In this document: piece after piece, positions 26,701-33,407 of the stretch | How positions within the stretch are numbered: position 1 is the first letter of the stretch | How the letters are laid out: each line of letters starts with the position of its first letter | NCBI RefSeq assembly: GCF_001570565.1 | Contig: NZ_BBXE01000043.1 | Location: 1-64,000 of the forward strand | Length of the DNA stretch: 64,000 bases | Source of the DNA: Herbidospora yilanensis | GTDB lineage: Bacteria; Actinomycetota; Actinomycetes; Streptosporangiales; Streptosporangiaceae | Reading direction: 5' to 3' | Made by a program: the position numbers and the translations under genes | Notes under the pieces: model-generated | Database searches by the model: none | Told to the model about the DNA's origin: nothing | What the model saw: the letters and a program-made list of their open reading frames with translations, nothing else

Positions 26701-27135
26701 ATGGAAGACGGGACTTTTTTGACACCCGGTCACTGTGGAGATACCGGCCCCGACTACGACGCATTCCAATGGGACAGCCGCGAAGACTGCGAAGTGCGGC
26801 AGATTCTCGACCGCATCGCCGACAAATGGTCGCTCCTGGTGATCGCGCTCCTCGACCACAAGACGATGCGTTTCACCGAGTTGAAGCGGGAGATCGACGG
26901 CATCAGCCAGCGCATGCTCGCCCGCACCCTGCGCCACCTCGAACGCGACGGCCTGGTCAAACGCACCGTCTTCCCGGTCGTCCCGCCCCGCGTCGACTAC
27001 GAGCTGACCCCGCTCGGCGAGAGCCTGCACGAGACGATCCAGGCCCTGGTGACCTGGACCGAGGCCCACCAGACCCAGATCGCCGCCGCCCGCGAGAACT
27101 ACGACCGCCTGGTCAGTGAATCTTCTCCGGGATGA
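26701..27135 (+). CDS. HxlR-family transcriptional regulator
   Basis: A 144-residue winged-helix protein of the HxlR type: ILDRIADKWSLLVIALLDHKTMRFTELKREIDGISQRMLARTLRHLERDGLVKRTVFPVVPPRVDYELTPLG marks helix, recognition helix and wing. The Cys in SREDCEVRQIL just before the domain is where redox- or electrophile-sensing members (HypR, QorR types) have their reactive Cys; a second Cys lies in the N-terminal tail. The ATG at 26701 has no strong Shine-Dalgarno. It is divergent from the MFS gene that it probably controls. Its 3' end overlaps the next gene tail to tail by 23 bases. Confidence 0.9.
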   Translation: MEDGTFLTPGHCGDTGPDYDAFQWDSREDCEVRQILDRIADKWSLLVIALLDHKTMRFTELKREIDGISQRMLARTLRHLERDGLVKRTVFPVVPPRVDYELTPLGESLHETIQALVTWTEAHQTQIAAARENYDRLVSESSPG

Positions 27136-28264
27136 TCTGGGTCAGCCGCGTGCGCGGGCGCAGCCGTTCCCGCAACTGGGTCACCTGCCGCTGCACGTCG
27201 AGTTCCTGCACGCAGGTGAGGGGGCCGGCACCCAGTTCCCGTACGGACAGCCGGGCGCCGTGGTCATAGGCGACGTCGGGCCTTCTGGCCTTGGGCGCGA
27301 ACAGCCGGCACAGGCGCACCGGCGCCAGGAGGACGTCCACGGCCAGTTCCTCCCCGCGGACCGACAACGAGCCTCGCGCGATCTTCAGCAGGCCGCGCGG
27401 CAGCAGGTCGGCCAGCCGGTAGTCGTCGGCCACCGGCGGCAGCACGGTCACCACGACCTCGCCGTAACGGCCGTCGGCGCGCAGGAAGGCGGTGACGACG
27501 ATCTCGTCGTCCTGGAGGACCACCCGGCGGTAGCAGCGGGGACCCTCGGTCACGGTGATCACTGGGCGGGCGTGGTCGAGCAGCGGCGAACCGGGTTCCA
27601 GCACCCCTGAGGCGACGAAGACGTGGTCCCCCTCCGGCAGCTCCAGGTCGGGCGAGGGCCACGTCTCGCGGACCGTCCCCCACCCGATGAACGCCCGCTT
27701 CGACAACGTGAGGTTGCCGTGCTGGGCGCGGACCAGGTAGTCGAGCCTCGGGTCGTCGACCGGCGGGGCCGCCGCGCCGGCCCGCAGCCTCCTCGCCAGG
27801 ATCACTCCGGCCCTGACCCGGAATCCCGCCACCACGACCACGGTGAGCACGATCAGCGACATCCCAAGCGGCATGGTGCCCAGGTCGACCGGCTGGCCGC
27901 TGACCAGCGCCTCCAGCCACGGCACCTTGACCATCAGCAGCACCCCGACGCCCATCACGACGACCGGGCCGCCCCTGCGGGAGTGCCGGAACCACACGAA
28001 CCCGCCCAGGACGACGAGCCAGCTCACGATCCGCCAGAAGTCGAGGACCATGCCCGCCGCGATCACCAGGGAGACGAGCAGATCCCGGTACGCCATCAAC
28101 CGTCGCGCCCGCAGGCAGTGCCGCACCACCGGGACCACGTCGAAGTCGCCCGCCGAGGGGGCCACGCCCCGGTAGGGGTCGCGGGTGAGTTCCCGGAGAA
28201 CCGCCTCGCGGAACCGGGTGTCGAGATATCCGGCCGCGCAGAGATAACGCGTCGTGTTCGACAT
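27113..28264 (-). CDS. Membrane protein of unknown function
   Basis: A 383-residue protein I cannot assign. Residues about 55-150 hold four or five hydrophobic helices (LLVSLVIAAGMVLDFWRIVSWLVVLGGFVWF, PVVVMGVGVLLMVKV, MSLIVLTVVVVAGF). The rest (from RLDYLVRAQHGNLTLSK) is a soluble domain with regular beta-like segments (GDHVFVASGVLEPGSPLLDHARPVITVTEGPRCYRRVVLQDDEIVVTAFLRADGR). The start at ATG 28264 (MSNTTRYLCAAGYLD) was chosen over 28318, which lies in AT-richer upstream DNA. No operon partner is evident. Similar architecture is common in actinomycete genomes as 'hypothetical membrane protein'. Confidence 0.6.
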   Translation of the reverse strand: MSNTTRYLCAAGYLDTRFREAVLRELTRDPYRGVAPSAGDFDVVPVVRHCLRARRLMAYRDLLVSLVIAAGMVLDFWRIVSWLVVLGGFVWFRHSRRGGPVVVMGVGVLLMVKVPWLEALVSGQPVDLGTMPLGMSLIVLTVVVVAGFRVRAGVILARRLRAGAAAPPVDDPRLDYLVRAQHGNLTLSKRAFIGWGTVRETWPSPDLELPEGDHVFVASGVLEPGSPLLDHARPVITVTEGPRCYRRVVLQDDEIVVTAFLRADGRYGEVVVTVLPPVADDYRLADLLPRGLLKIARGSLSVRGEELAVDVLLAPVRLCRLFAPKARRPDVAYDHGARLSVRELGAGPLTCVQELDVQRQVTQLRERLRPRTRLTQIIPEKIH

Positions 28265-28383
28265 GATTGTGGCCACAGCACCAGTAAGAGGTGCGATATT
28301 CGTTTTGTCTGCTCGCAAATGCGGCTATTGGCTACCTTTTGTCAATTCCTTGCGGGGGGCCGCCTATCGTCGGACGTGTGGAG

Positions 28384-29346
28384 ATGAACGCCTGGGTGGT
28401 GGCCCGGCCGGGCACGCTGGAGTTCACCCGGTTGCCGGTCCCCGTGCCGGGGCCGGGCGAGGTGCTCGTGAAGGTCGAGGTCTGCGGCGTGTGCCGTACC
28501 GACCTGCATCTTCTCGACGGCGACCTCGACGTTCACCGGCCGCGGACCGTGCCCGGCCACGAGGCGGTCGGGCGCATCGCCGACACCGGTGAACGCGTCG
28601 GGGTGGCGTGGTTGCGGTCGACCGACGGCACCTGCCGTTATTGCCGGCAGGGGAACGAGAATCTGTGCCCGAATTCGACGTACACGGGATGGGACGCCGA
28701 CGGCGGTTACGCCGAATATCTCGTCGCGCCGCGCGACTACGTCTATCCGCTGCCCGAGGACTATCCGGCCGAGAAACTCGCGCCGCTGCTGTGCGCCGGG
28801 ATCATCGGCTACCGGTCGCTGCTGCGGGCCGACCTGCCCCCCGGCGGACGGCTCGGCATCTACGGGTTCGGCGCGTCCGCCCACCTGACCGCCCAGGTCG
28901 CGATCGAGCAGGGCGCGACCGTCCACGTGCTGACCCGGTCGGAGGAGGCGCGGCGGCTCGCCCTCGAACTCGGCGCGGCCTCGGCCCGCGGCGCCTACGA
29001 CCAGCCGCCCGAGAAGCTCGACGCCGCGATCCTGTTCGCGCCGGTCGGCGACCTGGTGCCGACCGCGCTCGAAGCCCTCGACCGGGGCGGCACCCTCGCC
29101 GTCGCCGGCATCCACCTGACCGACATCCCGGTCCTGAACTACGAGCGCCACCTGTTCCAGGAGCGCGATCTGCGCTCGGTGACGGCCAACACCCGCGCCG
29201 ACGGCCGGGCCTTCCTGGAGTTCGTCGCCGAGCACCCGCTCACCGTCGAGACCACCCCCTACCCGCTCGACCGCGCCGACGAGGCGCTCACCGATCTGGC
29301 CCAGGACCGAGTGAACGGCGCCGCGGTGTTGCGGATCGGGTCATGA
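28384..29346 (+). CDS. Zinc-dependent alcohol dehydrogenase (MDR)
   Basis: A 320-residue medium-chain dehydrogenase. Catalytic zinc ligands appear in [13 protein letters not shown] (Cys) and VPGHEAVG (His-Glu); the structural zinc site has Cys residues in [14 protein letters not shown]. The Rossmann part is [20 protein letters not shown] near residue 160, and NERHLF-like sequence [18 protein letters not shown] marks the C-terminal lobe. It oxidises an alcohol or reduces an aldehyde with NAD(P). A GTG at 28378 would add two residues. The closest relatives by motif are adhP-like enzymes, substrate not determined. Convergent with the membrane-protein trio; ends overlap by 59 bases. Confidence 0.9.
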
Positions 29347-30679
29347 CCCACGCGCCTGTGGCAGCCGTCACCGCGCCGAACACGACGGCGAGCACGGTCG
29401 CCTGGTTGTAGGTGGGCACCAACCCGGCACTCCAGGCCTCGAACGGAGCCACCACGACCAGCCAGGTGACCACGCCCGTGCCGGCTCCGAAGGGCCAGAC
29501 CCACCACGGGGGCCGCGCGTCAGCCGCACTGAAGATCGCGAGGGGGACCGCGATCGGCGGCAGCGCGATTCTGCATACGAAGACGTCCACACCCATGGGG
29601 AAGACCATGCTGCCGGTGTCGGGGTGCGGCGCGATCCACCCCCACGCCACCGCCGAGAGCGCCAAGGCGCCGAGCCCGAACGCGACGCTGCGCGTCCCGA
29701 GCACCAGAACCAGCAGCCCGGCGGCGATCGCGACCAGCGCGGCGTGGCGGGGCAGGTCGTCGTCGTAGCGGCCGGGCGCGTCCACCGGCACCGCGAGCGC
29801 CTCGTCGGGCCCGTCGTAGTCGAGTCCCAGCCGCCGCCATGCGCCCGAGGCGTCGCGGACCGCCACCCCGTCGGCGCCGTTGGCGACCACGACCAGCCCG
29901 GGGAGCGCCGACACGCTCAGCGACTCGACCGGCGGGGCCAGCCTGGGCAGGTCGGCCGGGTCGGCACGACGGAGCCGATCCTGTACGTGTTCCGACAACT
30001 CCCAGGAGGTCGTCCAGTGGCCTCCACCGGATGACTCCTCGACCATCAGCCGTCCGGGCACGATCCGGTAGCACCGGCCGGCCGCGCACGACGAGACGGA
30101 GGGCGGCGGGCTCTTCAGGGCCGACCACCGCAGCCACGCCCGCCCGTCGGTGGTCGCGTAGCCGCCCCATTCCCCTAGCTCCCCGGTGTGGACGATGATC
30201 GAATCACCGATGACCTGGGTGGAGTAGGCGGCGGGCGGCACATAAGGCTGCGCGGGACTGGTCGCGGTGATCGCGAGCACGGCGGCCGGGGTCAGCAGCA
30301 GGACCACCGTCCTCCCCACGGGCACCGGGTGCCGGGAGGCGTACCAGGCGACGTACAGGGCGGGCAGGGTCAGGAGGTCGGTGAGGTCGGCGCGGATGAC
30401 CGACGGCCCCCACGCCAGCGACCAGGTCTCGGAGGCCAGCCAGGCGCCGGTCTCGGAGGCCTTGACCAGGGTGAACCCGGCGCCGGTGATCGCGATCGAG
30501 ACGGCCGGGCGGCGGATCAGCAGGTCGAGCACGGCCGGCAGCAGGATCAGCCCGGCGACGTCGCTGAGTTTCCCGGTGACCGGCCCGGGCCAGGTGAACT
30601 TCAGCAGGTGGTCGTTGACGACGAGCACGACCAGCGACAACACGGTCAGCGGATGGGCGATCCACGGGGCCGGCCTCAT
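29288..30679 (-). CDS. Paralogue 3 of a [10 protein letters not shown] membrane-protein family
   Basis: A 463-residue protein, third of three tandem relatives. It opens [32 protein letters not shown] then [25 protein letters not shown], about four helices to residue 150, an outside region of about 170 residues, and about five helices at the end. The outside region has Asp-box-like pieces ([33 protein letters not shown]) and [19 protein letters not shown], whose Cys pair is shared by all three. A charged tail [13 protein letters not shown] is unique to this copy. No function is known to me. Its ATG overlaps the stop of the middle copy (ATGA). Confidence 0.7.
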
Positions 30680-32016
30680 CGCGGCCTGCTCGTCACGAAT
30701 CCGGCCACCGCTCCCGCGATCGCCATGACCATGAACGTGACCCTGGCCAGGTCGCTCGCCTGGGCGTAGAAGTCCGGCCAGCCGTGACTCCAGCCGGCGA
30801 ACGGTGCCAGCACGGCCAGCCCGCCCAGCAGCCCCGAGACCACCGTCACCGCGGCCAGTCGCGCCGGCGGCGCGGCCAGCGCGACCCCCCAGGCGACCAG
30901 ACCGCCTCCCGGTAACCACAGCAGCACCCCGTTGGCCAGCCCCAGAAGGCCCCAATCCTCGGCCGTGCTCAGGCCGAATCGCACGCCGGCGACCATCAAG
31001 GCCCCGCCGATCAGGACCAAGGGGTGCCGGGTGCCCGTGAAGACCGCCAGCAGCGCGGCGGCGAGGGCCGCCACCGCCACGTGGTCGAGCACGTCATAGC
31101 GGCCCGGTGTGGTCAACGGCGCGGCCAGGGCGGCGTCGAAGCCGTCGGGGCCGAGGCCCAGCCGGTGCCAGGCGCCCCCGGCGTCCCGCAGGGCGATGCC
31201 GTCGGTGCCGTTCGCGGCCACCACGAGCCGTTCGGTCACCGCCACGCTCACCGCCCCCACCGGTTCACCGTTGCTGTAGGGGATCTCGGGATGGCTGCGC
31301 GCCAGGCGGTCGCGCACCTCGTCAGGGACCTGCCAAACGGTCGTCCAGCGCCCGTCGCGTCCTTCGTCGACCCGCAGGCGACCGGGCGTGATCCGGTAGC
31401 AGACGTCGGGGAGGCAGGCCCGGGTCACCGGCTTGGGTTGTTCGAGCGAGATCCACTTGTGCCAGGTGACGCCGTCGCGGGTCCGGTAGGCGATCGTGTC
31501 GTCGCCGTGGCCGTATCCGCCCGAGGTGTGGACGACGATCTCGTCACCCGCCGACTCGACGTTGCGGGCCTCATAGGGCCAGTCGTACGCCGCGGCGCTC
31601 GTCGCGGCCACCGCCAGCACGGCGGGCGGGACGACCAGGTAGACCACGGCCTTGTGCACGGGCACCGGATGCCGACAGGCCCACCAGGCGACCCAGAGCG
31701 CGGGCAGCGCCAGCAGGTCGGTCGGGTCGGCGAGCACCTTCGACGGCCCCCAGACGGCCGTCCACGCCTCGGAGGCCAGCCACGCGCCCGCCGCGGTCGT
31801 CTTGACCAGCGTGAACCCGACCCCCGTGATCGCGATCGAGACCCCCGGGCGCCTGATCACCAGGTCGAGCAGCGCGGGGAAGAGGATCAGCCCGGCGACG
31901 TCGCTGAGCTTCCCGGTCACGAACCCGGGCCAGGCCGCTTTCAGCATGTGGTCGTTCACGACGAGAACGACCAGGGCCAGCACGGTCTGGGGCTGGCCGA
32001 CCCACGTATGCCTCAC
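30676..32016 (-). CDS. Paralogue 2 of a [10 protein letters not shown] membrane-protein family
   Basis: A 446-residue relative of its two neighbours: [85 protein letters not shown], then the outside region with RTRDGVTWHKW, ACLPDVCYRITPGRLRVDE, VVAANGTDGIALRDAGGAWHRLG, and C-terminal helices. It has Thr-Thr-Ala-Ala-Gly after LVK like paralogue 1, so these two are closer to each other than to paralogue 3. It overlaps paralogue 3 by ATGA and follows paralogue 1 after 44 bases; the three form one transcription unit by inference. Confidence 0.7.
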   Translation of the reverse strand: MRHTWVGQPQTVLALVVLVVNDHMLKAAWPGFVTGKLSDVAGLILFPALLDLVIRRPGVSIAITGVGFTLVKTTAAGAWLASEAWTAVWGPSKVLADPTDLLALPALWVAWWACRHPVPVHKAVVYLVVPPAVLAVAATSAAAYDWPYEARNVESAGDEIVVHTSGGYGHGDDTIAYRTRDGVTWHKWISLEQPKPVTRACLPDVCYRITPGRLRVDEGRDGRWTTVWQVPDEVRDRLARSHPEIPYSNGEPVGAVSVAVTERLVVAANGTDGIALRDAGGAWHRLGLGPDGFDAALAAPLTTPGRYDVLDHVAVAALAAALLAVFTGTRHPLVLIGGALMVAGVRFGLSTAEDWGLLGLANGVLLWLPGGGLVAWGVALAAPPARLAAVTVVSGLLGGLAVLAPFAGWSHGWPDFYAQASDLARVTFMVMAIAGAVAGFVTSRPR

Positions 32017-32060
32017 TCCCTAAGAGAAAGCGCCAGGCGCCCTGAAACCGATACCCGTGA

Positions 32061-33407
32061 TCATTTTGGGACCGGATCGTACGTACGCCGATGCCCCCGC
32101 CCCGCCCGATGCCCGGCCACGGCCCCGAGGACGAGCAGCACCACGAACAGGACGGTCGCCAGCCGGACGGCGTCGGCGTAGAAGGTCAGCAGGCCGATGT
32201 TCCACGAGGCGAACACCGTTGTGGTCGCGCCGAAGGTCGTGATCCCGAAGGCCAGGGCCGCCAAGGGGACCTTCCACGGGATCCTGCGCCGGTCGTAGGC
32301 CAGGCACAACACCAGGACCCCGGGGGCGGCGAACAGGCCGCCCACGGACAGGGCGACCAGGAGGGCGTCCCGCGTCCAGGCCGCCAGCACCCAGCCGGCG
32401 GCCACCAGGACCGCGCCGACGCCGACCCAGGCTCTCCGGGAGCCCGCGACCAGGACCAGCAGGGCGGCGAGCACCCCGGCGGTCAGCGTGTAGTCGAAGG
32501 TGTCGTGCCGGCCCGGGGTGGTCAGGGAGACCGCTGGGTGACGACCGCCCAGGGCGCTCATCGGGACACGCCGCCAGGCGCCCGTCTCGTCGCGGACGAC
32601 GACCCCGTCGGCGCCGTTCGCGACGACCACCAGCCGCTCGGTCGCGGCCACGGACACCGACTCGACCGATGTCCGGCCGGAAGGGTCGTGGGCGCGTGAC
32701 AGGCGGTCGCGGGTCTCCTCCGGGACCTCCCACGCGGTGGTCCAGCTCCCGCCGGTCGACTCCTCGACCTTCAGGCGGCCCGGCACGATCCGGTGGCAGC
32801 GCTCCCGCACGCACGCGGTCGCCGCCGCCTTCCCCAGGCCCACGTCGGGATCGTAGGTCCAGCTCCGGCCGTCGGTGGTGTGACGACCGGCCAGATAGGG
32901 GTCGGCGCCGGGCACCTCGGTGTAGACGGTGATCCGGTCGCCGTCCGACCCGGCGGCATAGGCGACGCCGAGCCGCTCAGGAAGGGTCGACGACGCGGCC
33001 AGCCCCAGCACCGCGAGCGGGACGACCGTGAGCACCACCGCCTCCCGCACGGGAACCCGCCGCCGGGAGGCCCACCAGGCCGCCCAGAGCGCGGGCAGCG
33101 CCAGCAGGTCGGTGGGGTCGGCGAGCACCTTCGACGGTCCCCAGACGGCCGTCCACGCCTCGGAGGCCGTCCACGCGCCCGCCGCAGTCGTCTTGACCAG
33201 CGTGAACCCGATGCCCGTGACCACGATCGAGACCTCCGGGCGGCGCAGCACCAGGTCGAGCAGGGGAGGCAGGACCAGGAGCCCCGCGACGTCGCTCAGC
33301 TTCCCGGTCACGAATCCCGGCCACGCCGCCTTCAGCACGTGGTCGTTCACCATGAGCACCACGAGGGCCAGCAGGGTCAGGGGGTGGCCGATCCAGGTAA
33401 GCCGCAC
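32061..33407 (-). CDS. Paralogue 1 of a [10 protein letters not shown] membrane-protein family
   Basis: A 448-residue protein, first of the tandem set: [61 protein letters not shown], then outside segments [52 protein letters not shown] and five C-terminal helices. The GTG at 33407 was selected because the family start (RLTWIGHPLT) begins there; the frame is open to 33467 but the extra residues are not shared with the paralogues. The region upstream to the ABC transporter gene (about 145 bases) should hold the promoter of the three-gene unit. Confidence 0.7.
   Translation of the reverse strand: MRLTWIGHPLTLLALVVLMVNDHVLKAAWPGFVTGKLSDVAGLLVLPPLLDLVLRRPEVSIVVTGIGFTLVKTTAAGAWTASEAWTAVWGPSKVLADPTDLLALPALWAAWWASRRRVPVREAVVLTVVPLAVLGLAASSTLPERLGVAYAAGSDGDRITVYTEVPGADPYLAGRHTTDGRSWTYDPDVGLGKAAATACVRERCHRIVPGRLKVEESTGGSWTTAWEVPEETRDRLSRAHDPSGRTSVESVSVAATERLVVVANGADGVVVRDETGAWRRVPMSALGGRHPAVSLTTPGRHDTFDYTLTAGVLAALLVLVAGSRRAWVGVGAVLVAAGWVLAAWTRDALLVALSVGGLFAAPGVLVLCLAYDRRRIPWKVPLAALAFGITTFGATTTVFASWNIGLLTFYADAVRLATVLFVVLLVLGAVAGHRAGRGHRRTYDPVPK

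Follow-up and report, generated by a model that had tools for sequence, protein, structure and literature searches.

Three Tandem Genes of Herbidospora yilanensis Encode Membrane Proteins with a Conserved Core and a Predicted Three-Blade Outside Domain

The Gene Array and Its Products

The stretch of the Herbidospora yilanensis genome analysed here (64,000 nucleotides of contig NZ_BBXE01000043.1, positions 1 to 64,000; referred to as the window) harbors an array of three intact minus-strand genes, which fills exactly positions 29288-33407 and encodes three related membrane proteins. The first gene, P0003 (32061..33407, GTG start), encodes a 448-residue product composed of a membrane core, an outside domain, and C-terminal helices; the second, P0002 (30676..32016, GTG start), encodes 446 residues, and the third, P0001 (29288..30679, ATG start), 463 residues. 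The reading frames, together with a pairwise identity of 47-52%, bear out a previous sequence-only reading, in which three related proteins of 446-463 residues were proposed at this place, and both the N-terminal NDH motif and the CxxxxC(Y/H)RIxPGRLxV(E/D)E block that it had pointed out are present in all three copies. The ATGA overlap that it attributed to the array holds only for the stop of P0002 and the start of P0001, since 44 bp lie between P0003 and P0002.

When P0002 was used as a query against its own genome (7.85 Mb, 67 contigs), the other two copies were recovered with E-values of 3e-114 and 5e-106, and no fourth copy was found in these contigs. Pfam and NCBIfam scans of the three proteins retrieved no model at E≤1, in agreement with the earlier view of an undescribed family, and none of the PADLOC models matched the three window proteins or one stand-alone core. 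A phmmer search of P0002 against solved structures returned just two chains, with E-values of 0.65 and 1.1, which were judged not credible. The open literature searched contained neither the core motif strings, nor BNR repeats in Nonomuraea, nor a propeller membrane protein of Herbidospora, and among the matches listed for three-bladed propellers there was no protein of this build.

Membrane Topology and the Conserved Core

An AlphaFold model of P0002 was obtained from an alignment of 90 sequences, comprising the three window copies and 87 of 91 full-length relatives, from which long or atypical sequences of four loci (L039, L054, L057, L064) were omitted by hand. The model presented a mean predicted local distance difference test (pLDDT) score of 92.3 and a predicted template modelling score of 0.80, and all of its cytoplasmic loops were short. 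In the same 90 sequences, the mean number of lysine plus arginine residues was 1.07, 1.94, 3.42, 1.73, 1.43, and 2.02 in the loops and ends assigned to the inside, and 0.00, 0.74, 0.07, and 0.24 in the loops assigned to the outside, as expected if both termini are cytoplasmic and the strand domain lies outside. Thus, the build of an outside-facing membrane protein of Asp-box type, which had been suggested from the sequence, was supported by the model, the charge signal, the fold matches, and the Pfam matches in relatives presented below.

The core of P0002 (residues 1-140; 31597..32016, minus strand), delimited by AlphaFold models, the positive-inside signal, and conservation, carries the TGKLSD string. 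Its membrane helices were predicted at residues 9-28, 32-54, 57-73, 98-115 (broken at 104-105), and 122-137, and a further helix at 75-89 was placed on the outer side. A set of polar residues was found at the outer face of the membrane: the end of helix 1 carries N21, D22, H23, and K26, the start of helix 2 carries G35, K36, S38, and D39, the end of helix 3 carries K72, and the start of the membrane helix that follows carries D97 and D100. Their conservation was evaluated in an alignment of 79 cores, which comprised the window core plus 78 others out of 82 (those of L039, L094, L095, and L096 were left out). Eight of them (N21, D22, G35, K36, S38, D39, D97, and D100) occurred in 79/79 cores, the rows from other phyla included, K26 in 78, H23 in 75, and K72 in 59, its place being taken by Asn in 12 and by Gln in 8. 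The positive-inside signal and the model together place these invariant residues at the outer face, and the modelled topology suggests that they may form one spatial site.

Predicted alone from the 79 sequences, the core reached a pLDDT of 92.8. Fixed-threshold hydropathy counted fewer core helices than the AlphaFold model, namely, three in 44 of the 90 rows, two in 21, four in 18, five in 5, and one in 2. Comparison of the core model with solved structures returned a best Foldseek E-value of 0.81 and a best VIA-align Z of 5.7, the latter to a designed protein, and the core profile hit one chain, a transcriptional repressor, over 41 positions (E 0.093), which was judged not credible; this lack of a credible structural match is no proof of a new core fold. 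When the 79 cores were scanned against Pfam and NCBIfam at a threshold of E≤0.5, the matches were scattered, with at most 4/79 members per family, and were judged to be chance. The best E-values were 0.0026 among the 25 of 30 Pfam families listed and 4.6e-4 for NCBIfam (SemiSWEET, in one member).

The Outside Domain and the C-Terminal Helices

The outside domain of P0002 (residues 146-300; 31117..31581, minus strand) follows the core and contains Cys201 and Cys206. Residues 146-294 were predicted as thirteen strands, which can be read as three groups of four and a short last one, that is, three four-stranded blades. An Asp-box-type turn is located between strands 3 and 4 of each predicted blade (179-185, 219-224, and 277-283); the turns are therefore three, and not two as had been read from the sequence, the second being degenerate. 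The canonical pattern, which PMC2716378 gives as (S/t)-x-(D/n)-x-G-x-(T/s)-(W/f/y), was matched by box A in 61/90 sequences, by box B in 56/90, and by box C in 0/90, and the W283 of box C was present in 90/90. In the window copies, box A corresponds to the short form S/t-x-D/n-x-x-x-W described in the same paper, and box B is degenerate, P0001 and P0003 being devoid of its Asp. Cys201 and Cys206 were present in 90/90 sequences, and 87/90 outside domains contained exactly two Cys residues, which probably form a disulfide.

Asp-box families were also recognized in the relatives. At E≤0.01, the 90 full-length members matched BNR in 22 cases, BNR_2 in 7, and Sortilin-Vps10 in 2, and single members also matched Sulfate_transp (E 2.7e-5) and PAP2_3. 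Two relatives scored 19.6 and 19.5 for BNR, under its gathering score of 27. Foldseek comparison of the outside domain with solved folds gave a best E-value of 2.4e-3, with a root-mean-square deviation (rmsd) of 10.5-15.5 and a TM-score of at most 0.22 among the 50 matches listed. With VIA-align, Z reached 8.4, and variants of the RSL lectin scored 8.1-8.3 beside EED and WD40 proteins, values near 8 being middling by the note of the program itself. The aligned ranges spanned nearly whole target chains and gave no readout of the matching blades or of an open arc or closed ring. By these comparisons, the outside domain resembles beta-propellers. As to the sugar polymer or wall ligand that had been proposed, the nearest folds are sugar lectins (RSL, AofleA) and, equally, WD40 proteins, EED, and UVR8, and therefore the fold alone names no ligand. 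According to PMC6805158, the number of blades in natural propellers ranges from 4 to 12, and WD40 fragments with three blades form dimers or trimers; by analogy with these assemblies, the three blades modelled in P0002 suggest that the domain may assemble between chains.

At the C-terminal end, the model and sequence comparison delimit five membrane helices (residues 310-442; 30691..31089, minus strand), in line with the "about five" counted previously. These helices are not universal, since the tail after the outside domain is at most 45 residues long in three of the 90 sequences (L035, L043, L055).

Relatives and Alternative Partners of the Core

Pattern searches with two motif peptides in species genomes yielded 65 loci. 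Most of them belong to Streptosporangiaceae (Herbidospora, Nonomuraea, Microtetraspora, and others), and the remaining ones to Micromonospora, Amycolatopsis, Nocardioides, other actinobacteria, Pseudoxanthomonas, a Polyangia metagenome-assembled genome (MAG), and a Planctomycetota MAG. Pseudoxanthomonas belongs to the phylum Pseudomonadota and the Polyangia MAG to Myxococcota. The nearest relatives also point to a Herbidospora-like species as the source of the window. The full profile was found in 32/120 sampled genomes of the family of the window; 12 of these 32 genomes had just one match, and several of those with more owed the additional ones to pieces of one gene. The core profile was found in 8/296 genomes of the phylum of the window (own genome included; two of these matches were short and weak, with E ~2e-4) and, the starting genome being included in each case, in 2/299 genomes of the phylum of Pseudoxanthomonas, in 35/140 of that of the Polyangia MAG, and in 2/149 of that of the Planctomycetota MAG.

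Stand-alone cores (~130-190 residues) and cores joined to different outside domains occur in the phylum of the Polyangia MAG as well as in other Actinomycetota. Directly upstream of the stand-alone core of L159 and of L196, on the same strand, lies a small gene encoding one membrane helix and an outside domain; a similar small gene was called in L160, in which the core itself was not called by the gene finder, and a gene of similar appearance (by eye) follows the core in L067. A secreted or lipoprotein-like family, cluster c1, was identified in 9/40 loci (L158, L162, L163, L168, L169, L170, L172, L173, and L187). In eight of the nine, a long core gene is followed immediately by the cluster c1 gene in the same orientation, the core of L169 not having been called, and both members scanned (L158 and L172) bear a von Willebrand A domain. 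The long core of L166 has no cluster c1 neighbour.

Two further arrangements were observed around cores. In L174 (4854-6817) and L065 (1356-4142), three genes lie in a row, namely, one that looks by eye like a Ser/Thr kinase, one for a secreted protein of DUF4352 type (putatively so in L065), and a stand-alone core; the secreted protein of L174 matched DUF4352 with an E-value of 3.7e-26. In L065, an aroG-like gene (by eye) comes next on the opposite strand. A lipoprotein-like family of ~190 residues, cluster c3, adjoins core genes in four loci (L167:7669-8247, L189:7965-8528, L195:2198-2785, and L194), and its L167 member had no Pfam match at E≤0.01.

Age and Divergence of the Copies

A tree was built from 94 sequences with a length of at least 370 residues, the window copies among them, by a quick method with support from the Shimodaira-Hasegawa-like approximate likelihood ratio test only. 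Each window copy fell with a different Herbidospora gene set, with supports of 99 for the set of P0001, 98 for that of P0002, and 100 for P0003 and the gene of Herbidospora sakaeratensis (L012). Since the copies belong to separate orthologous groups, the array is older than the Herbidospora species split, and the recent duplication assumed by the sequence-only reading is contradicted. Two or three copies lie side by side in the Herbidospora loci L004, L005, L006, L008, L009, and L012; the P0003 orthologue, 85% identical, is present in L012 and absent from the other five. In related genera, tandem pairs arose independently: in G118 (L087), in Nonomuraea antri (L024, support 94), in an ancestor shared by N. 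typhae (L034) and N. endophytica (L046), and in one shared by G112 (L083) and G087 (L084); the pair of L053 was weakly placed in the tree.

Rates of change were compared between the window and five Herbidospora loci for P0001 and P0002, and with L012 only for P0003. Six neighbouring genes are 88-97% identical between the window and L012. Against the same locus, the core of P0001 and P0002 is 86% identical in both, the outside domain 57% and 61%, and the C-terminal part 45% and 48%, respectively. Over the five loci, the core of P0001 and P0002 had a ratio of nonsynonymous to synonymous divergence (dN/dS) of 0.21-0.33, their outside domain one of 0.42-0.88, and their C-terminal part one of 0.53-1.12, and that of neighbouring genes was 0.21-0.28; when all 15 locus pairs were considered, the C-terminal value reached a maximum of 1.37 (L005 versus L008). 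For P0003 against L012, identities were 89% (core), 86% (outside domain), and 82% (C-terminal part), with an overall synonymous divergence (dS) of 0.18, similar to that of the neighbours. The outside parts thus change much faster than the core in P0001 and P0002, and P0003, set against its one orthologue, presents little contrast between core and outside domain. At positions 181-300 of the DNA alignment, within the first third of the two genes, P0002 and P0003 are 92-93% identical, versus 85-88% between P0002 and its L012 orthologue, a hint of gene conversion between copies 2 and 3 in the core.

Neighbouring Genes

Named by eye, the neighbouring genes are an alcohol-dehydrogenase-like gene and an amino-acid-type ABC transporter in Herbidospora; serS- and pheA-like genes take their place in Nonomuraea and others. 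In the window, the alcohol-dehydrogenase-like gene (28378-29346, plus strand) is convergent with P0001, and the 3′ ends of the two genes share 59 bp (29288-29346); a comparable 3′ overlap of 56 bp was observed in L012 (7361-7416). A 383-residue protein is encoded at 27116-28267 on the minus strand, with relatives at the same place in L004, L006, L008, L009, and L012.

Proposed Role and Alternative Explanations

A role can be proposed on the basis of what was computed, namely, the structure of the genes, their family and its conservation, the predicted fold with its topology signal, the age of the copies, and the rate difference of P0001 and P0002. The three genes would encode cell-envelope membrane proteins of an unnamed family, and the short cytoplasmic loops of the model indicate that the protein most likely works outside. 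The core would carry an outward polar site, composed of Asn-Asp-His..Lys, Gly-Lys-x-Ser-Asp, and Asp-x-Thr-Asp, and would anchor an extracytoplasmic three-blade domain of Asp-box type with a Cys pair. This bladed domain may bind an envelope partner, either a protein or a glycopolymer, and deliver it to the core, whose polar site would in turn bind or process it. Since the core step is kept and the outside domain and C-terminal helices vary from copy to copy and, in two of the three, also from species to species, the three copies probably serve different partners. The whole proposal, that is, recruitment of an extracytoplasmic partner to the core by the outside domain, with copies that differ in that partner, is put forward tentatively, and we give it a chance clearly below even. 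A more far-reaching version appears improbable to us: the core would be a new membrane fold with an outward catalytic site, found in several phyla and owing its specificity to interchangeable outside domains, and in Streptosporangiaceae three-blade half-propellers of Asp-box type would be completed only by pairing between chains while tandem duplication with fast 3′ divergence would generate receptor sets.

Several observations weigh against the recruitment proposal. The invariance of the motifs is partly built in, because the 65 loci were themselves obtained with the two motif peptides, and the likeness to propellers rests on middling scores. The dS of P0001 and P0002 is raised, also in the C-terminal part, up to 0.98 versus 0.15-0.30 in the neighbours, and the DNA identity between window copies falls sharply at codon 140; for these reasons, the 3′ two-thirds of both genes hold older or exchanged variation, and their divergence is compatible with varied partners, relaxed constraint, or allele exchange. 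P0003 does not present a slow core: division of its dN by its dS gives 0.46 there, versus 0.31 for the outside domain and 0.83 for the C-terminal part. Moreover, it is the C-terminal helices, and not the outside domain, that change fastest; relaxed constraint fits this as well as varied partners do, and therefore the varied ligands of the sequence-only reading are not the sole explanation of the divergence. The Actinomycetota neighbours resemble housekeeping genes that keep a fixed position more than they do functional partners, and the search turned up no ligand, enzyme motif, or interacting gene.

The same features have been weighed under other explanations. The domain might be an incomplete propeller that closes by pairing of copies (2 × 3 blades), with tandem copies forming homo- or heteromers and the membrane part acting mainly as an anchor. 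Such an assembly platform would account for the three four-stranded blades predicted, and it agrees with the independent recurrence of tandem copies, with the oligomeric lectin folds (RSL variants, Z 8.1-8.3) among the best matches, and with the dimers or trimers formed by three-bladed WD40 fragments according to PMC6805158. However, that study found no hetero-oligomers among its constructs, 12/32 genomes have a single match, so that heteromers cannot be general, eight strictly conserved core residues exceed the needs of an anchor, and the outputs gave no readout of the blade arrangement; we regard this explanation as unlikely. The acidic and Lys residues that are invariant in or beside membrane helices, together with the existence of stand-alone cores in other phyla, are what a membrane enzyme or transporter would lead one to expect, the core performing chemistry or transporting a small molecule or ion, with the bladed domain as a mere regulator or lid. 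This is likewise doubtful, to a similar degree: the strictly conserved residues share one face, an arrangement that speaks against a route across the membrane, and the core has no credible solved fold or family, with hhalign linking it neither to VanZ nor to signal peptidase II.

A YCF48-like assembly factor or chaperone for an envelope complex would be in keeping with the short cytoplasmic loops, the patchy accessory distribution, and the weak match of L043 to PSII_BNR (E 0.024, below cut-off). We hold it to be improbable, since no obvious client gene lies nearby in Actinomycetota and the fast divergence of the outside domains of P0001 and P0002 would be odd with a conserved client. Equally improbable, in our judgement, is that the genes are duplicates of little function that persist by chance while decay proceeds from the 3′ side. 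The C-terminal dN/dS values (up to 1.12 for the window, 1.37 for L005-L008, and 0.83 for P0003) and the absence of the P0003 orthologue from L004, L005, L006, L008, and L009 could be read in this way; however, the frames are all open and the motif residues kept in all three copies, the core dN/dS of P0001 and P0002 (0.21-0.33) is near that of their neighbours (0.21-0.28), and two or three copies have been retained in the six Herbidospora loci.

The eight strictly conserved core residues permit a direct mutational test. A conserved core beside a fast-changing outer part is frequent in surface proteins pressed by partners or rivals, and the contrast in rates between the core and outer parts of P0001 and P0002 makes the ligand worth finding.

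Comparison with Known Systems

VanZ and signal peptidase II (LspA) were considered as relatives of the core on the basis of their motifs, both being small multi-helix membrane proteins with conserved polar residues, as the core is. They differ from it in profile, with hhalign probabilities of 0.2-1.1% and higher reversed controls. For VanZ (PF04892, an alignment of 8 sequences only), the probability was 0.4%, and in a second run 0.2% versus 2.2% for the reversed control. For LspA (PF01252, 13 sequences), it was 1.1%, and 0.37% in a second run, with a score of 13.97 versus 20.32 for the reversed control, and 29/200 block shuffles scored as high. Both candidates were rejected.

Regarding the outside domain, YCF48/HCF136 is an Asp-box propeller located outside the cytoplasm that aids assembly, YCF48 acting for photosystem II. 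Among the 10 relatives scanned, only L043 matched PSII_BNR, under the cut-off as stated above, and the family is absent from those listed for the 90 members at E≤0.01. Bacterial sialidases (GH33) carry a catalytic Arg triad, an Asp, and a Tyr/Glu pair in a six-blade propeller, versus three blades predicted here; the YRIxP string after the Cys pair may be reminiscent of the sialidase FRIP motif. RSL-type fucose lectins (7e7n, 7e7v, 7e7t) are soluble and have fucose-binding residues in each blade. Their fold aligns with the outside domain (for 7e7n, Z 8.3 over 115 residues, with an rmsd of 3.3 and 16% identity); however, EED and other WD40 folds score equally, and the alignment spans the whole lectin chain.

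The family also resembles the Asp-box (BNR) propellers, such as sialidases and Vps10/sortilin (PF02012, PF13088, PF15902), in its predicted four-stranded blades, their putative Asp-box-type turns, and the outside location, the weak Pfam matches being confined to relatives; the window proteins themselves, with no model at E≤1, do not reach the BNR gathering score. Asp-box propellers have 6, 7, or 10 blades, according to PMC2716378, whereas the P0002 model has three per chain. Unlike in these propellers, the outside domain of the window proteins sits between two membrane parts. Compared with known systems, an outside domain of Asp-box type is ordinary, and what is new is a widespread unnamed core with a strict outward polar signature. 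This core is a recurrent membrane module, and naming it would annotate many hypothetical proteins.

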